Shown: positions 3,579 through 17,487 of the stretch, piece by piece
Position numbering within the stretch: the stretch's first letter is position 1
Layout of the letters: each line of letters starts with the position of its first letter
Assembly: GCF_036967205.1 (NCBI RefSeq)
Contig: NZ_CP146022.1
Coordinates: 1,736,001-1,800,000, forward strand
Source of the DNA: Streptomyces sp. Q6
GTDB taxonomy: Bacteria > Actinomycetota > Actinomycetes > Streptomycetales > Streptomycetaceae
Length of the DNA stretch: 64,000 nt
Direction: 5' to 3'
Notes under the pieces: model-generated
Seen by the model: the letters and a program-made list of their open reading frames with translations, nothing else
Databases searched by the model: none
What the model was told of the DNA's origin: nothing
Position numbers and translations under genes: made by a program

Positions 3579-6500
3579 ATGAACGAGCAGCAGCCACACC
3601 GCACGATTTCAGCCACTCCCCTGCTGCGCCTGCACCTTTTCGGCGGTTTCGCGGCGACACGTGACAATGGGCCCGCGCCCGCCGGACGTTGGACACGGCC
3701 GAGCGCCCGGACCCTGGTGAAGCTGCTCGCCGTGGTGCCGGACCACCAGCTCCACCGCGAGCAGGCCATGGACATCTGCTGGCCGGACGCCGACCAGCAG
3801 TCGGCGACCGGCTCGCTGCGCGTCGCCCTGCACGCCGCGCGCCGCGCCCTGGAACCCGAACTCGCGCCGCGCGCCGCGTCGTCCTACCTGATATCCGACG
3901 GGGCGATGCTGCGGCTCGATCCGGCGACGGTGTGGATCGACGCCGACCAGGCGGAGGCCGCGGCGACCGACGCGCTGGCCTCCGGTGACCCGGACCGCCT
4001 CGCCGCCGCCCTGAACGAGTTCGCCGGGGAACTGCTCCCCGAGGACCGGTACGCGACCTGGGCGCAGCCGCGCCGCGACCGGCTCGCCGGGCTGCGTGAG
4101 GAACTGCTGCTCGGGCTCGCCGTCGCCCACCTGGAGCGTGGCGCGGCGCAGGAGGCCGTGGCCGTGGCCGAGCAGATCCTGACGGCCAGCCCCGCCGAGG
4201 AGGCCGCCCACCAGATCCTCATCGACGCGTACATACGCCAGGGGCTGCGGCGGCGCGCGGTGCGGCAGTACCACGTGTGCCGGGAGGCGCTGGACGCCGA
4301 GCTGGGCGTGCGGCCGAGTCCCGACACGGAGGAACTGCACCGGGCGGCGCTCGCGGCGGAACCCGCTCCGCTCCCCTCGGCGCCCTCGCTTCCCGCACCG
4401 CTGCGGGCCCCCGTGGCGTCCCCGCTCCGTGGCCGTGACAACGTTCTGCGCCGGCTGCTCGCGACGGACGGGCCCCCGGTCAGGCTGCTCGCGGGCGAGG
4501 CGGGCATCGGCAAGACGCGCCTGGTCGGCGAGGCCGCGCGGCAGGCGGCCGGGTCAGGGGCGGCCGTGCTGTGGGGCGGCGGGCACGACGCCGAGGGACA
4601 CACACCGTACGGGGCGTTCGCGGAGGCCCTCGACGGCTGGCTGGCCGAACGGGACGCGGGCGAGCGGGCCAGGGTCGGTGCCGAGCATCCCGAACTGGCC
4701 GCGTTCCTGCCGTCGTTGGGGCGCTCCGGCGGAGGCGGCGGGCGCAGCCCGGAGGAGGAGCGGGACCGGCTGTTCCGCGCCACGGCCGCGCTGCTCGGCG
4801 AACTGGCGTCCGTCCAGCCCGTGCTGGTGGTCCTGGACGATCTGCACGCGGCCGACACGGGCTCCTTCCAACTGCTCAGCCATCTGGCGCGACGGACCGC
4901 GGCCACGGGGGCCCCGCTGCGGTTCCTCGTGACATGGCGCGAGGAGGAACTCCCCGACGGCGATCCGCGCCGCGCGGGCCTGACCTCACTGGTCCGGCAC
5001 CGGCTCGCCGTGCGGGAGGAGTTGGCGCGGCTGGACCGGGAGGCGTGCCTCGCCGTCGCCCGGGACGTCGGCGGCGCCGGGGACCGGGTGTGGGAGCTGT
5101 CCCTCGGCAATCCGCTGTTCGCCGTGGAGCTGGCCCGCACCCCGGCCGAGGGCGACGCCCCCGACGGCGTACGGGAGTTGGTGGCCGAGCGGCTCGGGCG
5201 GCTCGATCCGGACACGCGGCGGGTCGTCGAGGCGCTGTCCGCCGCCGGCAGCGAGGCCGCCCTGTCCGAGCTGCTCGACGTCGCCGCGCACGGGCTGCGG
5301 CCCGCCCTCGACGGAGCCTCGGCCGCCGACGCCCTGGAACGGGCCATCGGCGCCTCACTCGTGGAGGAACGGCAGGTCGTCGTCGACGGACGCCCCGAGT
5401 CCGGGCTCGCCTTCCGGCATCCGCTGGTCCGCCTCACCTGCTACGACCAGCTCACCGCCGTACGCCGCAGGCAGCTGCACGCCGCGTTCGCGCAGGCCGT
5501 GCTGCGCCGCCGCCCCGACGCCGTGGACGCGCTCGCCTCGCACTTCGCGCGCGCCGACGACCCGCGGGCCGCCGAGTATCTGCGCCGGGCCGCCGAACGC
5601 GCCGCCGCCCTCTACGCCAACGACACCGCCGACCGCTACTACCGCGACCTGGTCGCCCGGCTCGACGTGGACGCGGCGCGCGCCCGGCTCGCGCACGCCC
5701 AGGTCCTGCGCCGGATGGGCCACTTCGGGCAGGCGGCGCAGGCGCTCCGCGCGGCGCTGGCCGAGTTCCAGCGGCGCGGCGATCACGACGACACCGTGCT
5801 CGCGGCGGCGCAGCTCGCCGAGACGCTCGTCAAGACGCGCTCCCCGGAAGCCGCCCTCGCCGTGCTGCGCGACCACCCGCCCACCGCGCGGACCGCGCCC
5901 GAGCCGACCGCCACCCACCATCTCGCCCGCGCGGTCACCGACTTCGTGCGCGGCCGGTACGACGCGGGCAGCGCGGCCGCCCGCGCCGCGCTCGACGCGG
6001 CGCGGCGGGTCGCCGGTGCGGCGGGGCACGGCCTGGTGGCGCGCGCGTACGCCCAGCAGGCGGGCAACCTCGGGCTCGCGGGCCGGTTCGGCGAGGCCAG
6101 GGAAGCGGCCGACCGAGCCCTCGCCCCGGCCGAGGCGTACGGGGACCCGACGCTGCTCGGCGGCGTCCTGTCGACGCTGCGGGAGAACGCGCGGCGCGGC
6201 GGCCGGCTGCGCGAGGCCGTCGGCTCCGGGCGGCGCGCCCTGGCCCTCGCCGAACAGTCCGGTGACCCCACGGCCGCCGCGTTCGAGCGGGCCAACCTGG
6301 CCGAACTCCATCTGCTCCTGGAGGAGTTCGAGCAGGCGCGGGAGTTCGCCGAGGCGGCGGTGGCGGGCTCCGAGCCGGACAGCGCGTGGTGCCTGCCGTA
6401 CGCGCTGGCCGCGCTGGCGCGGGTCCTGCTGCGGGACGGCCCCGCGGCGGACCTGACCTCCCTGCTCGACCGCGCGGAGCGGGCCGCCGCCGCGCACGAC

Positions 6501-6863
6501 GACCGGCAGGCCCGCTTCGAGGTCCGCACGGCCCGCGCCGAACTCGCCCTGCACGCGGGCCGCCCCGCGGAGGTGCGGGACGCGCTCGGCGACGCGGTGG
6601 CGCCCACGCTCCAGGCCTGGGCGGACCTGCTGGCCGGCGACCGCGAGGCGGCCCTGCGGGGCGCCGCCGCGGAGGTGGCACGGACGCGGGGTACGGGTGA
6701 GCGGCTCGCGGAAGTGGAGGCGCGGGTCGTCCTGGCGGCGGCTTCGGAGGGGCCCGAGGCGGAGGCCGCGCTCGCGGAGGCGGAACGGGTGGCGACCGCG
6801 CTGCCCTATCCTGCGGGGCTGCGGCGGGTCGCGGAGTTGCGGCGGGGGCTGCGCGGGGGCTGA
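3579..6863 (+). CDS. SARP-like BTAD / AAA ATPase / TPR transcriptional regulator
   Basis: A 1094-residue cytoplasmic regulator. Residues about 15-100 resemble an OmpR-type winged helix (LRLHLFGGFAATRDNG...RTLVKLLAV) and about 105-255 a BTAD domain (YRQ..C.E.LD.ELGV.PSPDTEEL). An AAA/NB-ARC-like ATPase follows, with Walker A GEAGIGKT (about 305-312) and Walker B VLVVLDD (about 414-420). The C-terminal half is Ala-rich helical repeats of TPR type. The order is that of large AfsR/SARP-family activators, which usually control nearby secondary-metabolism or development genes. No biosynthetic cluster adjoins it, so its target is unknown. ATG start at 3579, 25 nt after the terminator. Confidence 0.9.
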   Translation: MNEQQPHRTISATPLLRLHLFGGFAATRDNGPAPAGRWTRPSARTLVKLLAVVPDHQLHREQAMDICWPDADQQSATGSLRVALHAARRALEPELAPRAASSYLISDGAMLRLDPATVWIDADQAEAAATDALASGDPDRLAAALNEFAGELLPEDRYATWAQPRRDRLAGLREELLLGLAVAHLERGAAQEAVAVAEQILTASPAEEAAHQILIDAYIRQGLRRRAVRQYHVCREALDAELGVRPSPDTEELHRAALAAEPAPLPSAPSLPAPLRAPVASPLRGRDNVLRRLLATDGPPVRLLAGEAGIGKTRLVGEAARQAAGSGAAVLWGGGHDAEGHTPYGAFAEALDGWLAERDAGERARVGAEHPELAAFLPSLGRSGGGGGRSPEEERDRLFRATAALLGELASVQPVLVVLDDLHAADTGSFQLLSHLARRTAATGAPLRFLVTWREEELPDGDPRRAGLTSLVRHRLAVREELARLDREACLAVARDVGGAGDRVWELSLGNPLFAVELARTPAEGDAPDGVRELVAERLGRLDPDTRRVVEALSAAGSEAALSELLDVAAHGLRPALDGASAADALERAIGASLVEERQVVVDGRPESGLAFRHPLVRLTCYDQLTAVRRRQLHAAFAQAVLRRRPDAVDALASHFARADDPRAAEYLRRAAERAAALYANDTADRYYRDLVARLDVDAARARLAHAQVLRRMGHFGQAAQALRAALAEFQRRGDHDDTVLAAAQLAETLVKTRSPEAALAVLRDHPPTARTAPEPTATHHLARAVTDFVRGRYDAGSAAARAALDAARRVAGAAGHGLVARAYAQQAGNLGLAGRFGEAREAADRALAPAEAYGDPTLLGGVLSTLRENARRGGRLREAVGSGRRALALAEQSGDPTAAAFERANLAELHLLLEEFEQAREFAEAAVAGSEPDSAWCLPYALAALARVLLRDGPAADLTSLLDRAERAAAAHDDRQARFEVRTARAELALHAGRPAEVRDALGDAVAPTLQAWADLLAGDREAALRGAAAEVARTRGTGERLAEVEARVVLAAASEGPEAEAALAEAERVATALPYPAGLRRVAELRRGLRGG

Positions 6864-6901
6864 TCCCGGAGGACTCGGGCGGGGCCATGGGGGCCGTCTA
6901 G

Positions 6902-7267
6902 ACCGTCGGGTCGATCGGGGCCGTCTCGACCGTCGAGACCCTCGGGGCCGTCGAGACCGTCGGGGCCGTCGGGGCCGTCGGCCCCACCGAGACTCCGAGA
7001 CTGTCGGGACCATCAGGTCCATCGGCCCCACCGAGACCGTCGGGTCCGCCGGGACCGCCGGGTCCGCCGGGACCGTCAGGTCCGCCGGGACCGTCAGGTC
7101 CGCCGGGACCGTCAGGTCCGCCGGGTCCATCAGGTCCGCCGGGACCGTCAGGTCCGCCGGGACCGTCAGGTCCATCGGGACCGTCAGGTCCGTCAAGACC
7201 CTCAGATCCCCCAGATCCCCTAGATCACTCTGATCACTCCGGCCTCACAGGCTCCCCATGCCCCTGA
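6902..7267 (+). repeat. 18-bp tandem repeat array with a collagen-like open frame
   Basis: After the regulator stop lies a G/C-rich tandem array, most regular at 7043-7195, where the unit is close to GGTCCGCCGGGACCGTCA. One plus frame is open from the TAG at 6899-6901 to the TGA at 7265-7267 and reads 17 uninterrupted Gly-Pro-(Pro/Ser) triplets at 7043-7195, like collagen. It has no ATG, GTG or TTG codon in that frame, so I do not call a gene. The array runs up to, and its open frame overlaps, the 3' end of the convergent MFS gene, whose last codons are also repetitive (GHER units). It fills the roughly 370-bp space between convergent genes. Confidence 0.8.
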
Positions 7268-8517
7268 GACCTCTCGTGCCCCGTTGGCCTCTCATGCCCC
7301 GTAGACCTCTCGTGCCTCTTGTGCCCCTCGCGTTCGACCGGCCGGGGCGTGCGGCCGGCTCGGGCGCCGAGGCCCGCTGCCGCCAGGAGCAGACCGCCCA
7401 GCATCACGAACGGCGCCGCCGTCCCCGCCACGCCCGCGATCAGACCCGCCGACGCGGGCGCCGCCACCTGGCCGAGGCGGTTGCCGGTGAGGCGCAGGGC
7501 CAGGGCCGTGGAGCGGGCGTCCGGCGGCGCCGCCTGCACGACCGTCGTCATCGACAGCGGCTGGCCCACCCCCAGGCAGAAGCCGAGCAGCACCAGCATC
7601 ACGCCCAACGCCCAGACGGGTACGGGCAGCGCGATGCCCGCGCAGAGCACCGCCGCCAGCAGGCAGGTCGTCGTGATCAGGAGGGCGCGGCCGAGCCAGT
7701 TGATGAGCGGGGTCATCACGAGGCGGCAGGCGATCGTGGCGCCCGCGCGCAGGCTCAGCAGGATGCCGACGACGGACGGGGCGATGCCGCGGTGTTCGCC
7801 GACGACCGGCAGGTACGCCGTGAGGATGTCCGTGGCGGACAGCACGGCGAGGCTGATGAAGATGCCGCCGGGGACGCCGCGGGTGCGCAGGATGCGGTGG
7901 ACGGGGACCCGTGCCGACGGCGCCGCCGCGCGCGGACCCGCCGCCGTGGAGCGGGACTCGATGCGCCAGAGCGAGGTGAGGGAGACCGCGGACACGGCCG
8001 CCGAGACGAGCAGCGCGAGGGCGCTGGTGCCCGCCATGTCGGGGCCGCCGATCACCGCACCCGCGGCGATGGGGCCGACGAGCTGGCCGAGCGAGGCACC
8101 GATCGTGAAGTGGCCGAAGTTGCGGTCCTGTTCGTCGGGCGCGGACTGCCGGGCCACGATCGACTGGGCGCCGATGACGAAGCAGAGGTGGCCGAGGCCC
8201 ATCACGCCGCTCCACGCGGCCATCCACACGAGGGAGTCGGCGAGGCCGCTCAGGGCGCAGCCGCCGGAGATGAGCACGACCCCGAGCGGCAGCAGGGGCG
8301 CGCATCGCCCGTGATCGGTCCGCCGCCCCAGCGGAACCGCGGCGAACAGTGGCAGCAGCGCGTAGACGCCCGCGATCACACCGACGGCCCGCTCGTCCGC
8401 GCCGAGCGCGAGCGCCCGGTACGAGACGGCGGGCCGCGCCATCGACACCGCCCCCTGCGCGAAGCTGAAGGCGATGACGAGGCGCAGAAGCCAGGTGCGG
8501 CTCATTCGGTCGGTCAC
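7234..8517 (-). CDS. MFS transporter
   Basis: 427 residues with about 12 hydrophobic segments. The loop motif PLGRRTDHGR after the second membrane segment matches the MFS motif A region. The GTG at 8517 overlaps the upstream CitMHS stop by four bases (GTGA), giving VTDRMSRTWLL; the ATG at 8505 is an alternative. The overlap implies one operon with the citrate symporter. The last 30 or so residues are a charged repetitive tail (HERSTGHERPTGHERSQGHG) that looks like slippage DNA, as in the adjacent array. The substrate cannot be told from sequence; the drug or metabolite exporter subfamily is the likely class. Confidence 0.88.
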   Translation of the reverse strand: MTDRMSRTWLLRLVIAFSFAQGAVSMARPAVSYRALALGADERAVGVIAGVYALLPLFAAVPLGRRTDHGRCAPLLPLGVVLISGGCALSGLADSLVWMAAWSGVMGLGHLCFVIGAQSIVARQSAPDEQDRNFGHFTIGASLGQLVGPIAAGAVIGGPDMAGTSALALLVSAAVSAVSLTSLWRIESRSTAAGPRAAAPSARVPVHRILRTRGVPGGIFISLAVLSATDILTAYLPVVGEHRGIAPSVVGILLSLRAGATIACRLVMTPLINWLGRALLITTTCLLAAVLCAGIALPVPVWALGVMLVLLGFCLGVGQPLSMTTVVQAAPPDARSTALALRLTGNRLGQVAAPASAGLIAGVAGTAAPFVMLGGLLLAAAGLGARAGRTPRPVEREGHKRHERSTGHERPTGHERSQGHGEPVRPE

Positions 8518-9935
8518 ACGATTCCGAACAGCAGGCCCGCACCGAGCACGACCAGCGCGGTCAGCGCCGCCCATTTCACGGTGAACCGGGTGTGGTCGCC
8601 GAACTCGACCTTGGCCATGCCGACGAGGACGTACACGGCCGGGACGAGCGGGCTCGACATGTGCAGCGGCTGGCCGACGAGGGAGGCGCGGGCGATCTCC
8701 AGGGAGGAGACGCCGTGCGCGGCGCCCGCCTCGGAGAGGACCGGCAGGATGCCGAAGTAGAAGCCGTCGTTGGACATGAAGTACGTGAACGGGATGGACA
8801 GGACGCCGGTGACCAGGGCCATGTGCGGGCCCATCCAGTCGGGGATGCCGCCCACCACCCACTTCGCCATGTGGTCGACCATGCCGGTGCCCTGGAGGAC
8901 GCCGGTGAAGACGGCGGCGGCGAAGACCATGCCCGCGACGTTGAGGACGTTCTCGGCGTGCGCGCCGATCCGGGCCCGCTGGTCGGGCATGTGCGGGAAG
9001 TTGACGGTGAGGGCGAGCGCGGCGCCGAGCATGAAGAGGACCGGGATCGGCAGCAGCTCCATGATCATGGCGGTCAGGAGCACGACGGTGAGCAGTGCGT
9101 TGAACCAGTACAGCTTGGGGCGCAGGGTGGCGCGGCGCGGGTCGAGTCCGGTGAAGGTCTCGCCGTCCTCGTTCTCGTACGAGGGTGCGCTCGCGGCGGC
9201 GTTCGCGGAGCCTGCGTGGTCGCCGCCGCCGGTGCCCTTGCGCGCGCCGTTGCCGGCGCCGACCAGGACCTTCTCGTCGGCCGTCTCGGTGGCCTCCTCG
9301 GTGACCTCGTCGATCGACAGGTGGCCGAGGCGGGTGCGCTCGCGGCGGCCGAGGACGTAGGCGAGCGCGAAGACGAAGACGAGTCCGACCGCGAGGGCCG
9401 GGATCATCGGCACGAAGATGTCACTGGCGTCGAGCTTGAGCGCGGTGGCCGCGCGGGCGGTGGGGCCGCCCCAGGGCAGCGTGTTCATGACGCCGTTGGC
9501 GGTCGCGGCGACCCCGGTCATGACGACGAGGCTCATCTTCAGGCGCTTGTACAGCGGGTACATCGCCGAGACGGTGATCATGAAGGTGGTGGAGCCGTCG
9601 CCGTCCAGGGAGACGATCGCGGCAAGCACGGCGGTGCCGACGACGATGCGGACCGGGTCGGCCTTCGCGAACTTCAGGATGCCGCGCACGATCGGGTCGA
9701 ACAGGCCGACGTCGATCATCACGCCGAAGTAGACGATCGCGAACATCAGCATCGCGGCGGTGGGCGCGAGGTCGCCGATGCCCGCGATGACGTAGTCACC
9801 GAGGTGGGCGCCCTTGCCCACCAGGACGCAGAACAGTGCGGGGATGAGCACGAGCGCCGCGATGGGCGACACCTTCTTCATCATGATCAGGACCAGGAAG
9901 GTCGCGATCATGGTGAAACCGAGGAGGGTCAACAT
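8514..9935 (-). CDS. CitMHS-family citrate:divalent metal symporter
   Basis: 473 residues, multi-pass membrane protein. The sequence MLTLLGFTMIATFLVLIMMKK, ATANGVMNTLPWGGPTARA and SLDGDGSTTFMITVSA match the CitMHS family, which imports citrate complexed with Mg2+ or Ca2+. A charged Gly/Ala/Glu-rich cytoplasmic loop sits about residues 205-265. It is the first gene of a two-gene unit with the MFS protein. No citrate-sensing two-component pair adjoins it; a dyad in the upstream region (10020-10034) could be a regulator site. Confidence 0.9.
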   Translation of the reverse strand: MLTLLGFTMIATFLVLIMMKKVSPIAALVLIPALFCVLVGKGAHLGDYVIAGIGDLAPTAAMLMFAIVYFGVMIDVGLFDPIVRGILKFAKADPVRIVVGTAVLAAIVSLDGDGSTTFMITVSAMYPLYKRLKMSLVVMTGVAATANGVMNTLPWGGPTARAATALKLDASDIFVPMIPALAVGLVFVFALAYVLGRRERTRLGHLSIDEVTEEATETADEKVLVGAGNGARKGTGGGDHAGSANAAASAPSYENEDGETFTGLDPRRATLRPKLYWFNALLTVVLLTAMIMELLPIPVLFMLGAALALTVNFPHMPDQRARIGAHAENVLNVAGMVFAAAVFTGVLQGTGMVDHMAKWVVGGIPDWMGPHMALVTGVLSIPFTYFMSNDGFYFGILPVLSEAGAAHGVSSLEIARASLVGQPLHMSSPLVPAVYVLVGMAKVEFGDHTRFTVKWAALTALVVLGAGLLFGIV

Positions 9936-10063
9936 GGAGGGGGTCCCTAACGTTCGTTCGCCATCGAACTGCCGCCCGGGGGTGGCGGTCAGCGAGACGT
10001 TAGGGCCCGTCGGATCGCGTTAACAAGATGTTGACACGTGAGCAATAAGAGCAAAACTCCAGG
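9936..10063 (-). promoter_or_regulatory. promoter region of the citrate symporter with a small dyad
   Basis: 128 bp between the CitMHS start and the end of the caspase gene. It holds an AT-richer patch and an imperfect inverted repeat TTAACA-AGA-TGTTGA at 10020-10034 (one mismatch). This could be an operator; no family assignment is possible. Confidence 0.4.
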
Positions 10064-13000
10064 TCACAGGCGGTCGAAGAGCACGACACCGTTACGGGTG
10101 CCCACGGCGAGCTCACCGGTGGGGCCCGCGGCGAGGGCGGTGCAGACGGAGGGCAGGTCGACGGTCGTGCGGACCCGGCCGTCCCTGCTCCCGGCCACGA
10201 CGAGGGTGCGTCCGAGGGCGACGGCGTACCGGTCCGCGCCGGCCAGGACCGTCGCGTGCCGGACCCCGGGGAGCACGGCGCGGTGCCGGTGGACGGGCTG
10301 TGGTTCCTCGCTCGCCGCCCGTTTCCACGGCCGGACGCCCCCCGCGGCCGACCGGTCGAGGGCCTCGACCAGCGGGGCGAGCGGCAGGAGGAGGGTCTCC
10401 TCGACGCCGACGAGCAGGAGTTCGGCCCCCGCGGCGCCCGGCACGGCGGCCACCGCCCGCACCCCGCCCGTCAGCACCCGCACCCTGGCCCCGGTCGCTC
10501 CGTCGAGCACGAAGAGGCCGCGTCGCCGGGTCGGCACCGCGTAGAGGGTGCGGTCCCCGCACCGCAGGATGTCCGCCGGGTAGAAGTCGGGGTCGGTGCC
10601 CGGGTCGAAGCAGGGCTCGTCGAAGACGGGGCCGCGTGCCACGTCGTGCACCGCGAGCCGTGCGCGGCCCCGCGCGTTCCACACGGTGAGCGAGTGCGCC
10701 GACTGCCCGGCGCCCGGCTCCTGTTCGGGCAGCGTCCGCAGCCAGACGGGTTCGCCCTCGCGGCCGCAGTGCGGCACCGGCGTGCGCAGCGGTCGGCCGC
10801 TCTCGCGCGGTGCGGGCCGCTCCGCCAGGTCCCAGTACTCCAGGACACCGGAGCCGCACCGGGCCAGGACGAGTGGGCGCGGTCGTCTGCCCGGCACCGG
10901 CCAGTCGAGGGCGACCACCGAGTCGACGGGGCCGTCCGTCAGGGGCCGCAGCCGGTGCCGCAGTGCGCCGTCGGCTCCCGCGCGCACCTGGACGAGCCCG
11001 TTCGTGGCGCCGACGACGACGTCCGCGCCGAAGTCCCGTACGGACCAGGCGGCGGTCGTCACCGACGACACCGTGTCGAGGGCCTCGGTGAGTTCCAGCT
11101 CCGCGCCGGTACGGGTCAGCCGCCACACCTCACCCGCCCCGGTGCCGCACAGCAGCCCGTCGTCGGCGTCGCCCAACGAGGCCACGGCCTCGGGCAGCCG
11201 GCGCTCCCAGCTGCCGTCCAGGGCGACGAGCCGGTGGTCGTTGCCGCCGCTGACGGCCTGCCCGGCGAGGAAGCGGACGGCCTGGACCGCACCGTGATGC
11301 ACGGGCCGGGGTGCTCCGACGGGCCGGAACGTGGGCAGCGTCCACTCCTGTACGCGGCCGTCGTCGAAGCCGACGAAGAGCTGCCCGGTGTCCGGTCCGA
11401 GACCGAGCGCCGTCGCCCAGGCGGGGTCTGCGGGTGCGGGACCCAGCGCGTACATCCGCCCATGGGTCACGTCCCAGCAGGCGATCCGGCCGGTGGCGGT
11501 CGCGACGGCCACGACGTCACGGCCCCTGACCCGACCGGTGGTGACGGCCGTGACGATGCCGGTGACGGTGAACTCCTGTTCCGCGACGGGCAGTCCGCGG
11601 TCCAGGACGAGGACGCGGACCCGGCCGCCGTGCTCGCCGGTCACGACCGCGTCGCGTTGCCCGGTCAGTCGCCCCACCGCGGCGCAGGACAGCAGCGGCA
11701 CCTGCCAGGGCCAGGGGCGGGGGACGTCGCGCCGCCAGATCTCCCGCGAGTCCGCCGCGTCCCAGCAGCGCACCGCGTGGTCCTCGCCGACGCTGACCAG
11801 GGCCCGGCGCCCGTCGGGACGTCGCACCGGGCCCACCGCCAGGATCCGGGCGCCCTGGTGCCCGGTGACCTGCGTGGAGTCGGCGGCGCGCGGAGTGGGC
11901 CAGATCCGTACGATGCCGTCGCTGCCGCCGACGCACACGGTGCCGTCGACCGTGCAGACGGCCGCCGCCTCGTGGTACCTGCTCTGGCCGCCGACCCGGT
12001 CGCCGGTGACGAGGTCGTACAGCTGGAGCCCGTACAGGTCGCCCTGCACCGAGACGCAGGGCAGCGTGCCGAGATCGAAGGCCGCGACGCGCACACCCGG
12101 GCTGCGGTCGATGCGCAGAGGCAGCCCGATGGGCCGGCCGCTGTCGAGGTCGATCCGGTGCAGTCGGCCCTCTGCGGTGGCGACGGCGACGATCCACTGC
12201 CGGCCGGCGCGGTGCACGGCGAGGGAGACGGGGGCCTCACCGGCGAGGAGGGTGCGGACCGGCTTCCCGGTGGAGAGGGAGGTGAGCCGTACGGTGTCGT
12301 CGCCGAGGCTCGCGGTGACGGCGAGACGGCCGGAGGCGTGTCCGGTGACGAGGCCGAGGAGGCCGACGCGGGTGGCATGGCCGGTCGGCTGGTCCGGCTC
12401 CGCGCGTCCCAGGCCCCCGTCGGCGAAGCCGCACACCGTCCCGAACGCGGGCGCGGCGGCGATCACGGTGACGCGTGGCGCGTCGCGGTCCCCGCGCTGC
12501 CACATCACGCACTCCGACGAACGCTGGGTGTCGAGTTCCCGCTGGATGTCCCGGTCGTAGTCGTCCAGGGCGCGCCGGGACCGCCGGGACAGCCGGGGAG
12601 CCGTGTTCCCGTTCCCCAGGGAGTAGCCGAGCAGCGTGCCGTCGGCGAAGCGCAAGGTGGCGGCGTCCAGCATGGCGGCGTCCCCCCGCACCACGACCTG
12701 GTCCGGCCAGCGCATTCCGGTGCGGTCGTGTCCCGCGTCGGCCTCCTCGTGCAGCGGCAGTTTCCAGCACAGGTACCGGCCGGTGGGGATGTGCCAGGCG
12801 TGCAGCACCCGCCAGTTCATCCGGATGTCCCGGCCGCCGCGGTACCAGTAGCGCGAGTAGTGCGACAGCGCGGCGGCCCAGCCCGGCAGTTCGGGCTCGG
12901 TCGACCAGGTGTCCCGGTCCAGCGCCCCGCGCTGTGCGGGGAGTTCGACGCGCTCCCCCGTGTCCAGGTCCCAGGCGGCGGCCGTCCCGCGCCACGGCCG

Positions 13001-15426
13001 CTTCTCCAGGAACCAGGCCTGGCCGCGCGTACCGGGCACCACGACCCCCTCCTGGGCCCCGGACCCCAAGCCCCCGTAGCCGCGCGAGCCCCCGTAGGGG
13101 TCCACGCCGCCCACCGGGCCCGCCACGGCAGGGGCTCCTCGCCCGCCGTGTCGCAGGAGTCGGCGAGCCGGGTCGCGGTGCGGCAGACCGCGGCGAGCCG
13201 CAGCCGGGCGCGGACGTCCTGGTCGCCGGGGCCCGGCGTCCTGCCGCGCAGCACCGCCTCGACGTCCCTGACGGCACGCCCGGCTCTGCGGCCTTCGGCG
13301 GTACGCAACCGCGGCAGGGCAGCGAGGAGTTGGCCGGCGTCGGCGGCGAGCACGAACGCGGCGTCCCGCACCAGCGGGTCGAGCACCCCGCCCTCGCCCG
13401 CGTGCAGCGCCAGGTAGTGCCGTACGTACGGGTGGTCGAGGTCGCGCAGGGCCTCGGTCACCGTGCGCTGCACCCGCTCGGCGTCCCGGCTCTCGCGGAG
13501 GTACTCGATGAGGGCCCGGTGGTAGATCCGGTACACGGAGCCGCCGTCCTCGACGCCTTCGACGACGTACGAGCCCGCGGCCTGGCGCAGCCAGACGATG
13601 TCCTCGTCGCCGTAGCGGCGGCCGCTGATCGCCGTCGCCAGCCGGGGCCACACACCGGCCCACGGCAGTCCGGCGCCCTGTGCGTAGGCGAGGGGGCGCA
13701 GCAGGTCGCGGGCCCGGTCGGCGAGCGGGCCGAGGCGCTGGTCGAGGTCGCGCTCCATGGCCTCACCGGGCAGTCGCGGCAGCCGCTCGCACCAGGTGTG
13801 CCAGCCGGGGTCGCCGGGGTGCGGCAGCCGGGGTTCGCGGGCGGTGGTGCGGGCGGTGATGCGGGCGACGAGGAAGGAGCGCCCGGCCGCGGCGGCGATG
13901 GCCTCGGCCACGGCGTCGACGACGGCGGGTGGTGCGGTCAGGAGCGGGGAGCCGGGCGCGGTCAGGAGGGTGCGGGCGTAGGCGCGGACCGCGGGCGGGT
14001 CGCCGTACCGCTCGTCGTCGAGGTCCATCACGGTGGCGTCGGCGGACAGTCGGCGGGCGATGTGCGGCCGTGCGCCCACCAGCAGCCTGAGCGGGAGCTG
14101 GCGTTCGGGGTCGGTGAGCGGGGTGATCAGTTCGTCGACGACCTCGTGCGGGGCGAGGGTCTCGTCGAGGCCGTCGACGAGGACGACGAGGGGCGAGGTG
14201 CGGGTCTGGAGGTGCGCGGTGAGCGCGCCGAGCGACTCGGCGGCGCTGCCCGCGGCGGCGGCGAACGCGTCGAGGAGCTGCCGGGTCGACTTGTGGCTCG
14301 CGTTGACCGCGACGTGCACGGTGCCGGGGCCGGGCAGCACGGACGGCAGTCCGGCGCGCGGGACGGCGGCACCGCGGTCCGGGTCGGTGAGCACGGCGAC
14401 CATGCCGAGCAGTGAGGACTTGCCCGAGCCCGGGTCACCGGTGACGACGCAGAGCCGGTCCGCGGCGCGGGCGGGAGCGAGCCAGCCGGTGAGGTCGGTG
14501 AGCGCGGTGTGGCGTCCGGTGAAGTCCCACACCTCGTCGGTGGGGACATCGGTGCCGCGCGCCCTGGGCAGGAAGAAGTCGGTCAACTCTCTTTCGCGGG
14601 CGAGGCGTTCGCGGCAGCCGAGGGCGATGATCCGGTCGATCTCGTCGAGCTTGCGGCCGGTGGCCTCGGGAACGTGGCGCGGGTTCGGCAGGAACGCGGG
14701 GATGCCGCCGGTGGCGTGCGAGAGGGACCAGACGGGGCGCTGGGCGGGCGGCACCTCGGGGTCGGCGGCGATGGCGGCCATGACGTGTTCGACGCTGATG
14801 TGGGCGGGCGCGTGCCCGGCGGTGGCCTGGCGGCGCACGGCCCGGTCGAACGCGGCGGACAGGGCACCGACGTACGACTCCTCCTTGCGCCGCGAGGAGG
14901 CGACGAGGACGAGGCCGGTGGGGCCGTGCTCGGTGACGGGTTCTCTGAACTGCCGTGCTTTCAGCGCGGAGCGCAGGGCGGTGTCGGTGCCCGCCTCGGC
15001 GTAGCAGCAGTCGACGAGGACGAGGAGCCGCTCGATGGAGGTGCCCTCCCACAGGAGCGCGACGAGTTCCTCGGTGGGCAGGGCGGTGCCGTGCGGGTCG
15101 CGGGCGTCGCTGTCGGAGAGCAGGAGGTAGTGCCGCCCGCTGTCCTCGGCGGTGACGCCGTGCGCGGCGAGGTAGAGGACGACGTGGTCGTCGGGGCGTC
15201 GCTCGGGCGCGGTGGCGAACGCCCGCAGCGCTTTGGTGAGTTGCTCGCGGCTGGGGTCGAGGCCGAGGTCGGCGCCGCGGGTGTGGTCCAGTTCGCCGAG
15301 GAAGAGCCGCTCGATGCGGCGGACGTCCTCGGCGAGTTCGGGGCGGGCCGCGTCGGGGTGGGCCGCCACCTGGGTGACGGCCGCGCTCAGCACGTACCTG
15401 CGGCCGTCAGCCGCTCTGCCGTCCAT
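10064..15426 (-). CDS. caspase-like peptidase / P-loop NTPase / WD40 protein (one frameshift)
   Basis: Giant protein of about 1,787 residues. Residues 1-200 are a caspase (C14) fold with His89 in YLAAHG and the DCC motif at 139-141 (Cys141 probable nucleophile). An NTPase follows with Walker A GDPGSGKS (330-337) and Walker B VVLVDGLDE (about 414-422), then a helical region. The second half is WD40-type beta-propeller (SVGEDHAVRCWDAADSREIW, VGGSDGIVRIW, AVATATGRIACWD, FVGFDDGRVQEW). The frame breaks at the CCCC run 13097-13100; one extra C joins RWAAW to TPYGGSRGYGG in the downstream frame, so an indel error is likely. The ATG overlaps the alpha/beta-hydrolase end by 20 bases. By family this is a protease-effector, STAND-like NTPase and sensor propeller; a conflict or cell-death role is inference. 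Confidence 0.85.
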
Positions 15427-16261
15427 CGTCCACCGCCCGCCCCGCCTGGGGCGTGTTCAGGTATCTGGTGGCGTCGTGCGCCCGCGCCCCGTTGCGTACG
15501 AGTCGGCTCTCGACGCGGTCGCCGAACAGGGGGCGCAGGTCCTTGGTCAGCGCTACGACGTCACCTTCGTCGGCGATGTTGGTCCACCGCTCGACGGAGC
15601 CCGGCCAGTCCCCCGGTCTGCCGCCGGGGACGCGCAGCCGCTCGAAGACGAGGCCGTGGATGCCGAGCGGGGAGCCGAGGGTGACGAGGGTGCGCACCGG
15701 CCATTCGGGGTGGGCGCACAGCGCTTCGTAGGCGACGACCGTGCCCAGGGAGTGGGCGACGAGGATCCGGGTGTCGGGCGTGATCCGGTCGGCGAGGCGC
15801 TGCTGCACGGCGGCGTGGACGGCGGGGTCGGTGAGGTAGGCGCGGACCTGTTTGAGGTCGGCGACGAGGGCGCGCAGGGCGACACCGGCGAAGAACCGGG
15901 AGCGGCTGAGGGCGTTGAGGGCGCGCTGGACGGTGCGCGGGGTGCGGGCGAGGGTGCGGGCGTCGGGCGCGAGGACCGCGTCGTCGGTGCGGGCCGCCTC
16001 CGCCCACAGCGCGAGCAGCAGGTCGCTCTCCAGTCCCTCGGCGACGTCCGAGGCGTCGAGCGGCGGGTCCTGTACGGCGAGGGTGCGGCCCGGGGCGCGG
16101 AACAGGTCGCCGTAGAAGGCGCAGTGGAGGTCGCCCTCGGCGAGGTCCGGGGCGCCCGCGCGGGTCAGGCCGTCGGCGAGCGCCGGGTACCACGTCGCGT
16201 GCAACTGCCGCTCGCCCGCGTACTGTTGGCCGATCCCGTGCACGCCCACCGCTCGCACCAT
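15407..16261 (-). CDS. alpha/beta-hydrolase paired with the caspase-NTPase
   Basis: 284 residues, no signal peptide. The fold is indicated by an N-terminal GVHGIGQQYAG (oxyanion-loop type HG motif), the nucleophile elbow VAHSLGTVVAYEAL and TLGSPLGIHGL after it, as in PGAP1-like or serine lipases/esterases. ATG 16261 has GGGGGA five bases upstream; a TTG at 16318 in the same frame is less likely. The 3' end overlaps the start of the caspase gene, so the two are translationally coupled and probably work together. The substrate is unknown; lipid or membrane damage is one possibility by analogy with hydrolase effectors in conflict systems. Confidence 0.82.
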   Translation of the reverse strand: MVRAVGVHGIGQQYAGERQLHATWYPALADGLTRAGAPDLAEGDLHCAFYGDLFRAPGRTLAVQDPPLDASDVAEGLESDLLLALWAEAARTDDAVLAPDARTLARTPRTVQRALNALSRSRFFAGVALRALVADLKQVRAYLTDPAVHAAVQQRLADRITPDTRILVAHSLGTVVAYEALCAHPEWPVRTLVTLGSPLGIHGLVFERLRVPGGRPGDWPGSVERWTNIADEGDVVALTKDLRPLFGDRVESRLVRNGARAHDATRYLNTPQAGRAVDDGRQSG

Positions 16262-16358: not shown

Positions 16359-16976
16359 TCAGTCCAACACGCGCGCCAGATAGGCCCGCAACAGCTCCCG
16401 GGTCTCCCCGATGATCGCCGCGTCCCCCGCCGCGTCGAGCCGGAACGCGAGCCGGACCAGGGTGTCCGCCGCTTCGACGGCGACGAGGAACGTGCGGCGC
16501 AGGGCGGCGTCGGGGGTGCGGCCGAGGTGCGGGGCGAGGAGGTCCGTGAGGGTGTCGGCGACGCGGCGGTTGGGGTCGGCGTCCGGGTCGCCGACGGGGA
16601 TCTGGGTGCCGAAGTCGACGAGGGAGAAGCCGGGTGCGGTGCGCTTCATGGCGAGGTACTCGTCGAGGACGGCGTCCATCGCGGCGCGCCAGTCGTCCGC
16701 CCCGATCGCGGCGAGGCGTGCGGTGACGCGTTCCGCGTAGCGCTCCAGGTTGCGCTGGGCGAGGGCGTCGACCATGGCGCGCTTGTTGCCGAAGAAGCGG
16801 TAGACGGAGCCGATGGGGACGTCGGCGCGGCTCGCCACGGCGCGGGTGCTCAGCTCGTCGTAGCCGCTCTCGTCGAGGAGCCCGGCGCAGGCGTCGAGGA
16901 TCCGGGTCAGGCGCTCGGCGCTGCGCTGCTGGACGGGGGCGCGGCGCAGGGACGTCGGGTGCGGCATGCGGGTCAC
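16359..16976 (-). CDS. TetR-family regulator
   Basis: About 205 residues. The N-terminal helix-turn-helix reads RILDACAGLLDESGYDELSTRAVASRADVPIGSVYRFFGNKRAMVDAL, a textbook TetR domain. The GTG at 16976 starts one base after the lipoprotein stop; the ATG at 16967 is an alternative. It sits 97 bp upstream of the hydrolase-caspase pair on the same strand and may be co-transcribed with it or repress it. The ligand is not predictable. Confidence 0.9.
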   Translation of the reverse strand: MTRMPHPTSLRRAPVQQRSAERLTRILDACAGLLDESGYDELSTRAVASRADVPIGSVYRFFGNKRAMVDALAQRNLERYAERVTARLAAIGADDWRAAMDAVLDEYLAMKRTAPGFSLVDFGTQIPVGDPDADPNRRVADTLTDLLAPHLGRTPDAALRRTFLVAVEAADTLVRLAFRLDAAGDAAIIGETRELLRAYLARVLD

Positions 16977-16977
16977 C

Positions 16978-17487
16978 CTACGGCGCGTCCATGTCGGGGG
17001 CGGGTGAGGCGGTCTCGGCCCCCGAGGCGGTGAGGTCGGCGGTCGCCTCGACGGGTTCGCCGTCGACCGCCCAGACGGTGTGGTCGTCGGCGTACAGGCG
17101 CACGGTGACGTGGTGGGTGCCGCGGCCGACGCGGGAGCCGGGCAGCCGGTGGTCGAGGGTGCGCAGCAGGGCCAGGCGGCGGCCGTCGAGGTAGAGCTGG
17201 GCGTAGCCGCGGCCGTGGACGGCGCGGGACCCGGTGCCGGGCGGGCTGAGGCGGAAGTGGCGCAGGCGGATCCGGATGTCCCAGCCGGCGCTCGGGTCGG
17301 CGTCGGGCTGGACGACGATGCCGGCCTCCGGGGCGTCCTTCTCCGGGACCTGCCGGAAGTGCCGGCCCTCGTCGTCGGTGCGGTCGAGGACGGTGCCGAC
17401 CCGGCGCGGACCGCCGTCGTCGTCACCGCACCCGACGAGGCCCGCCAGAAGGGCGGCGGCTGTTCGGACCCGTGGCGACCTCGACAT
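16978..17487 (-). CDS. small lipoprotein of unknown function
   Basis: 169 residues. The signal region [21 protein letters not shown] carries a lipobox (LVGC, Cys20), so it is likely lipid-anchored outside the membrane. The rest is polar, with beta-strand-like segments ([33 protein letters not shown]), and no catalytic motif is evident. It is transcribed just ahead of the TetR gene (one base between stop and start), and divergently from hmgA. I do not recognise the family. Confidence 0.72.

Follow-up and report, generated by a model that had tools for sequence, protein, structure and literature searches.

The stretch of DNA considered here, hereafter the window, comprises 64,000 nucleotides of Streptomyces sp. 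Q6 (contig NZ_CP146022.1, positions 1,736,001 to 1,800,000), whose genome consists of 8.95 Mb in two contigs. It carries two overlapping genes on the minus strand, the first encoding an alpha/beta-hydrolase and the second a large protein in which a caspase domain, a STAND-type NTPase and a WD40-type propeller follow one another; a hydrolase of this family is nearly always accompanied by the caspase, and the caspase also occurs where the hydrolase is missing. The elements of the locus, in coordinates of the window, are:

15407..16261, minus strand: alpha/beta-hydrolase gene, 284 residues, lipase-like, with the predicted triad Ser171/Asp234/His262
10064..15426, minus strand: caspase-nSTAND NTPase-WD40 propeller gene, in two frames, the frame being broken
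14668..15402, minus strand: caspase domain, with His89 at 15160-15162 and Cys141 at 15004-15006; limits from a hidden Markov model (HMM) on L122
13753..14529, minus strand: STAND-type NTPase domain, with Walker A at about 14413-14439 and a Walker B-like motif at about 14158-14187; limits from the HMM on L122
13072..13126, minus strand: frame-break stretch, from guanine-cytosine (GC) content by codon position and comparison with intact relatives
10064..13102, minus strand: WD40-type propeller region, matched by beta-propeller models below their cut-offs; the fastest-evolving part in the close clade

The hydrolase reading frame opens with an ATG at 16261 and its stop ends at 15407, so that its 3' end overlaps the ATG of the caspase gene (15426) by 20 nucleotides, as the first-pass annotation, made from the letters alone, had described for the end of a hydrolase with an AHSLG motif (residues 169-173). 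A protein of Streptomyces sp. NPDC052225 is 94% identical, and the relatives of the hydrolase agree with Streptomyces as the source. With the Pfam model PGAP1 the hydrolase scores 17.2 bits, below the cut-off of 24.3, and a search of solved structures by sequence returned no match better than E 0.08. Ser171, Asp234 and His262 are invariant in all 93 aligned hydrolases, a selection from 120 listed homologues and the loci described below, and a triad of nucleophile, acid and histidine on the predicted fold places the protein in the alpha/beta-hydrolase superfamily. The structural matches of the model are phospholipases and lipases, with thioesterases (TesA and acyl protein thioesterases) nearly as good. 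A lipase or phospholipase activity is thus predicted from similarity of fold, which by itself shows no function. Two loops of the cap, residues ~55-70 and ~101-110, are modelled with low confidence.

The second gene displays the caspase motifs HG (residues 89-90) and DCC (139-141), followed by a Walker A motif GDPGSGKSS (330-338) and by VVLVDGLDE from residue 414. Peptidase_C14 matches with 27.6 bits (cut-off 21.4) and nSTAND1 with 33.3 bits (cut-off 27.1), and AAA_22 also exceeds its cut-off on the NTPase domain with 30.5 bits; the profile searches proposed in the first-pass annotation have thus recovered both folds, together with the His89, Cys141 and Walker motifs on which it had relied. 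For the propeller that it had joined to them, several beta-propeller models give matches, every one under its cut-off (WD40 24.9 bits against 27), this copy being divergent; the WD40 scores of relatives L041 and L054 reach 228 and 334 bits. Tyr85, His89, Asp139 and Cys141 are invariant in 58 of 58 aligned caspase sequences, an alignment from which L068 was left out because a contig end cuts its locus. The AlphaFold2 model of the caspase domain has a predicted local distance difference test (pLDDT) score of 94.1, its best Foldseek match is MALT1 (E 1.5e-9), and metacaspases and caspases are also matched. MALT1 cleaves after a basic residue. As in MALT1, an aspartate stands two residues before the catalytic cysteine, which suggests, on the strength of the model, cleavage after a basic residue here as well. 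When the 766-residue caspase-NTPase piece was compared with solved structures by sequence, mostly antibodies were matched, which was taken as chance. No second copy of the propeller region was found in the genome, the only other matches being short ones of 30 and 52 bases.

The gene is not continuous in this record. Its two open reading frames (15426..12817 and 13663..10064) lie in different frames, and GC content by codon position indicates a change of frame near 13,100. Compared with L039 (from Streptomyces sp. TRM68416) and L040, the intact relatives closest to it, the gene follows them in its first frame as far as residue 785 (13072) and again in its second from residue 188 onwards (13102), which locates the break between ~13,070 and ~13,130; it was left unmended throughout the analysis. 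Seven relatives (L033, L034 and L036-L040) run in a single frame of 1788-1853 residues between stops. Since these seven are continuous, a programmed frameshift is ruled out and the break is specific to this record, either a mutation or a sequencing error; unless it is the latter, it would leave a caspase protein without its propeller. The other two of the nine closest loci are L035, cut by a contig end, and L057, itself damaged. In the latter, from a Streptomyces atriruber draft (5997-10813), the hydrolase lies in two frames, and the caspase-NTPase frame of 823 residues ends ~70 nucleotides before the frame of a CitMHS gene, so that this copy seems to lack most of its propeller. That the copy in the window belongs to a decaying, non-functional system, its frame broken ahead of the propeller, is a possibility that deserves real weight without being the favoured one: the break itself among intact relatives speaks for decay, as does the damaged look of L057, but both halves keep a strong codon-position bias and hold no further stop, which points to a very recent event or to a sequencing error in DNA of 75-76% GC around the caspase gene.

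The argument for a functional link between the two genes comes from their recurrence. A scan for the hydrolase of a collection of, by its own description, 84,980 species genomes, in which exact peptide words were needed and near relatives were favoured, yielded 61 loci, Nitrosospira, Methylomonas, Lyngbya and Microcoleus among them. With profiles built from these loci, a caspase-domain gene was found to adjoin the hydrolase in 58 of the 61, behind it in 53 and ahead of it in 5; the exceptions are L082 and two loci with partial hydrolase matches, L092 and L093. Because 58 of 61 related hydrolase genes adjoin a caspase gene, the pairing is not due to chance, and the comparison of gene neighbourhoods that the first-pass annotation had put forward as a check bears it out. 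The caspase domain starts within 60 nucleotides of the hydrolase stop in 49 of the 53 loci with that order (median 20), and of the 58 paired loci 52 have a match to an NTPase of the same type and 49 to a propeller. The pair spans Actinomycetota, Cyanobacteriota and Pseudomonadota. Transfer between these phyla is not shown: in a tree of 58 of the 61 hydrolases (L057, L092 and L093 left out), the sequences of Cyanobacteriota fall into one group and those of Pseudomonadota into another, and the three groups need the minimum of changes. A candidate for a natural fusion of hydrolase and caspase, P0075 (462 residues), contains both parts, reads like a garbled gene and was not used as evidence.

The dependence is one-way. 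In the reverse search from the caspase, 38 places gave 30 loci, a set in which the locus of the window is counted and part of the first set recurs, so that the two are not independent; the hydrolase lies within 1.5 kb in 21 of the 30 (one match, L137, being partial at 50 bits) and nearby on the other strand in one more (22 of 30). The caspase must thus have other roles, as 8 of the 30 caspase-type loci are without the hydrolase in the stretch fetched. A replacement of the hydrolase by EACC1 in such loci was also considered and dropped, as none of three small upstream genes tested matched EACC1. This asymmetry bears on the idea that the hydrolase is a regulator, a deacylase or esterase that restrains or licenses the caspase or makes the sensed signal, the caspase being the killer. 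The hydrolase gene does come first in 53 of the 58 loci, and TesA and acyl protein thioesterases are among its structural matches, but such a role predicts that lone caspases are rare, and these are seen in 8 of 30 loci against 3 of 61 for lone hydrolases; it is held to be the least probable of the readings.

A second line of evidence is provided by co-variation of the two partners, examined in 48 of the 58 paired loci after removal of L057, L067 and L077 (split genes), L061 (contig end) and L043, L048, L068, L069, L071 and L081 (no NTPase match). The Mantel correlation of tree distances over the 48 loci is 0.84 between hydrolase and caspase and 0.77 between hydrolase and NTPase. With the respective other domain controlled for, the partial correlation in 47 loci is 0.53 for the caspase, a value reached in 0 of 2000 permutations, and 0.03 for the NTPase (812 of 2000), and in the 40 loci outside the close clade it is 0.47 (0 of 2000) and 0.13 (168 of 2000), respectively; the stretch after the NTPase holds a small share of 0.19 (47 of 2000). 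The hydrolase thus co-varies with the caspase domain and not with the NTPase fused to it.

The same preference appears in a Streptomyces locus, L043, whose hydrolase shares 70-71% and whose caspase shares 51-52% identity with its counterparts in L053 and L062, and whose hydrolase falls in the L053/L062 clade with support of 100/99. The 700 residues behind its caspase resemble nothing in L062 (best E 1.6) and contain an AAA domain with no nSTAND or WD40 match, whereas L053 and L062 share 72% identity over 637 residues there. Judged by sequence, L043 looks like a natural swap in which the pair has been kept with a different rear half. Other partner architectures include an AAA-TPR protein in the cyanobacterial locus L069, a VMAP-M2 protein in L114 and EAD2 in L028, L120 and L121.

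The reading favoured here, held at about even probability, is that the two genes form a conflict or cell-death chain in which the caspase activates the hydrolase. The propeller would sense a trigger and the STAND NTPase would assemble the protein; the assembled caspase would then cleave, and thereby activate, the predicted lipase of the overlapping gene, which would damage the lipids of the cell's own membrane, and the threatened cell would die. The trigger, the oligomerisation, the cleavage of the hydrolase, its lipid substrate and the benefit, be it phage defence or hyphal death, are parts that we infer. One-way dependence, co-variation restricted to the caspase and the sensor swap are the traces that a protease and its substrate would be expected to leave. 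The first-pass annotation had cast protease and hydrolase as effectors side by side; the two enzymes themselves stand, and their parallel action fits less well than a chain. As parallel effectors on one sensor assembly, the caspase would degrade proteins and the hydrolase lipids or some other ester, neither cleaving the other. This is judged unlikely, though well worth keeping in mind, since the invariance of both active sites, the caspase-STAND loci without a hydrolase (where the caspase can act on other targets) and the failure to find a universal cleavage site would all agree with it. It is at odds with a hydrolase that tracks the caspase domain rather than the NTPase that would recruit it, and that stays with the caspase where the rear half differs, as in L043. 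The chain is preferred because of the asymmetry between 58 of 61 and 8 of 30 and because of the caspase-only co-variation.

Several observations weigh against a caspase-activated hydrolase or limit what its traces can say. No universal cleavage site was found in the hydrolase: Arg106, in one of the low-confidence cap loops, is conserved in 82% of the 93 hydrolase homologues, and its motif is absent from the caspase-paired L079, L086, L088 and L089 and from the rhizobial members. Much of the cap is, moreover, well conserved, unlike a disordered gate. Shared ancestry is not accounted for in the permutations, and part of the co-variation may stem from the linkage of neighbouring genes; the five loci of flipped order, L045 among them, have the hydrolase behind the propeller and show the same pattern more weakly, 0.33 against 0.06 over 215 pairs, from few loci. 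The caspase of L043 is equally close to that of L055 (53%). Beyond the caspases without a hydrolase, 20 more distant hydrolase loci show a caspase-profile match in 9 and none in 11 within the stretch fetched, and since several of these 11 share chromosomal surroundings, the wider hydrolase superfamily has other jobs. Pfam finds no caspase domain in the caspase proteins of the plasmid loci L095 and L100 or in that of L018. No homologue was found in the 50,697 phage records of INPHARED, and in PADLOC-DB 2.0.0 no model matches the hydrolase at E<=0.1, nor does its "caspase" model match the protein of the window. Among the distant hydrolases, L106-L109, from another family of the order, lack a caspase match, share one chromosomal neighbourhood and are probably housekeeping relatives.

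The rates at which the parts evolve differ. Mean identity among seven close relatives is 71% for the caspase, 72% for the NTPase and 74% for the hydrolase against 48-52% for the propeller, as expected of a propeller facing a changing trigger. Blade amplification also differs between relatives: tandem DNA repeats of 132-135 bases (67-74% matches) run through the propeller of L054 (12137-13732), and those of the window's propeller have units of 6-9 bases only.

The distribution is patchy, with the caspase domain present at E<=1e-10 in 36 of 199 genomes of the genus, this one included, and it extends to plasmids, 51 records of which match the hydrolase. The eight of these that were opened come from Streptomyces (two), Sinorhizobium (two), Rhodococcus, Leptolyngbya, Agrobacterium and Hymenobacter, and all have an adjacent caspase-profile match; it reaches only E ~0.008 in L095 and L101, whose proteins nevertheless carry the annotation caspase family. 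The rhizobial, Agrobacterium and Hymenobacter plasmids carry a minimal pair, a protein of ~590-660 residues followed by the hydrolase. On a Rhodococcus ruber megaplasmid (L096, 8935-18846), the hydrolase and a WD40-bearing caspase have integrase/recombinase, helicase, PIN and SIR2 genes in their vicinity, surroundings that look like a defence island. A Streptomyces plasmid (L098, 7001-14849) holds a divergent hydrolase-caspase-NTPase pair with an HD-domain gene and then, 1.1 kb on, the type I-E CRISPR gene Cse1. In L099 (1-3085), an annotated DEAD/DEAH helicase with a caspase-profile match at its start (71.7 bits) lies ~2 kb from a minimal caspase-hydrolase pair. Six hydrolase loci come from the virus collection IMG/VR, two of them (L162 and L163) with an adjacent caspase match and four with none. 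PADLOC gives the window one partial HEAT-ARM_XIII match (38.7 bits), three matches at E 0.033-0.067 and no full system; its "caspase" model matches relatives L041, L099 and L101 (18.5-31.2 bits), and PDC-S27 matches L043 weakly.

Upstream of the pair lie two further genes of the same strand:

16359..16967, minus strand: TetR-family regulator gene (Pfam TetR_N and TetR_C_22)
16978..17487, minus strand: small lipoprotein-like protein, so called by eye, without a Pfam match

The upstream TetR gene is present in all nine of the closest loci, the lipoprotein in seven and CitMHS, within the flanks, in four; none of the three occurs within the flanks examined at the 52 other loci. The suggestion of the first-pass annotation that TetR and lipoprotein belong to the unit is therefore given up: they are neighbours specific to the closest clade, where TetR may act as regulator of the pair. 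The constant order TetR-hydrolase-caspase (9 of 9, with the lipoprotein in 7 of 9) resembles a stable chromosomal locus and would suit a TetR-controlled device for developmental or stress-related cell death in hyphal bacteria rather than a response to phages or plasmids. The patchiness within the genus, the 51 plasmid records and the fast propeller fit a role in conflict better, and a developmental device is considered improbable. Pfam identified among the eight window neighbours scanned two TetR, CitMHS, MFS, HgmA, GntR and BTAD-AAA_16 proteins, with one unmatched. The BTAD-AAA_16 regulator (1094 residues) and a frame with a highly repetitive translation (6697-7233) follow each other on the plus strand between 3579 and 7233.

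A wider reading, offered tentatively and at somewhat less than even probability, is that hydrolase and caspase constitute a mobile, caspase-gated lipase cassette, a lipid-cutting counterpart of caspase-gasdermin and caspase-nuclease pairs, which has been plugged repeatedly into STAND-WD40, AAA, AAA-TPR, VMAP and minimal two-gene chassis. Bacterial caspases activate pore formers and nucleases. If true, the cassette would add an enzymatic route to caspase-triggered membrane death in bacteria. The pairing of alpha/beta-hydrolase and caspase reported in 2020 for VMAP systems, without an explained mechanism, can now be addressed directly by biochemistry, as the partner protein is small and expressible and the order-flipped and sensor-swapped loci serve as natural controls.

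In bacterial gasdermin operons, as in the apoptosome and NLR proteins, a sensor NTPase sets off a protease and the protease activates a membrane-damaging partner. The partner in the gasdermin operon, a kind of system also mentioned in PMC13236601, is a pore former, whereas here it is predicted to be an enzyme, an alpha/beta-hydrolase, and not a gasdermin. According to the available passages of PMC12799240, a trypsin or caspase has been shown to activate its hydrolase partner in nuclease-protease pairs, and the authors think further enzyme classes possible. As those passages describe them, these pairs (canu, and those of the Avs1/Hachiman type) likewise join a separate hydrolytic effector gene to a protease that is fused, in several systems, to the core defence protein; they differ in that the partner is a nuclease of the metallo-beta-lactamase (MBL) fold there and a lipase-type alpha/beta-hydrolase here, and in that the protease activates its partner there, which for the window we only infer.

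The nearest described systems, in keeping with the kinship to NTP-dependent conflict systems that the first-pass annotation had proposed, are those treated in the passages at hand of Kaur et al. 2020 (PMC7159879). In the vWA-MoxR-VMAP ternary systems, these state, caspase-bearing VMAP proteins always have a neighbouring alpha/beta-hydrolase gene, and a related hydrolase is mentioned in GAP1-N1 systems. Caspase component and adjacent hydrolase gene are thus shared, and the hydrolase families overlap, as the relative in L114 (224 bits with the profile built here) adjoins a VMAP-M2 protein (166.9 bits). By comparison, neither frame of the window's protein gives a match to a VMAP model at E<=0.1, no MoxR or vWA is found among the eight neighbours scanned, and the caspase shares one protein with a STAND NTPase and a propeller, in two genes in all. 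The EACC1-caspase two-gene system (System 4 in the same passages) similarly consists of a short gene followed by a caspase gene with exchangeable modules, including STAND and repeats. However, its model NF047832 gives the window's caspase 57 bits, below the cut-off of 140, the short gene here is the hydrolase, and the one EACC1 match of the genome lies ~680 kb away, outside the window. There (C1:2431699-2432699), a second caspase gene (frame of 407 residues, 44.4 bits) stands directly behind the EACC1 gene (81.5 bits), and the two make a candidate EACC1-caspase system. The metacaspase-NACHT-WD40 proteins, widely distributed according to Asplund-Samuelsson et al. 2012 (PMC3501461), show the same order of caspase, NTPase and WD40, and the passages at hand do not mention a paired hydrolase gene. 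In the literature searched, a scope outside which most subscription journals and all preprints fall, the two-gene form of hydrolase and caspase-STAND-WD40 protein was not found described. The hydrolase-caspase pairing of the vWA-MoxR-VMAP systems and the metacaspase-NACHT-WD40 proteins are thus already known; the present analysis adds the two-gene form with STAND and WD40 parts and the extent of its spread, the invariance of both active sites, the caspase-specific co-variation, the asymmetry of the pairing, the flip of gene order and the sensor swap.

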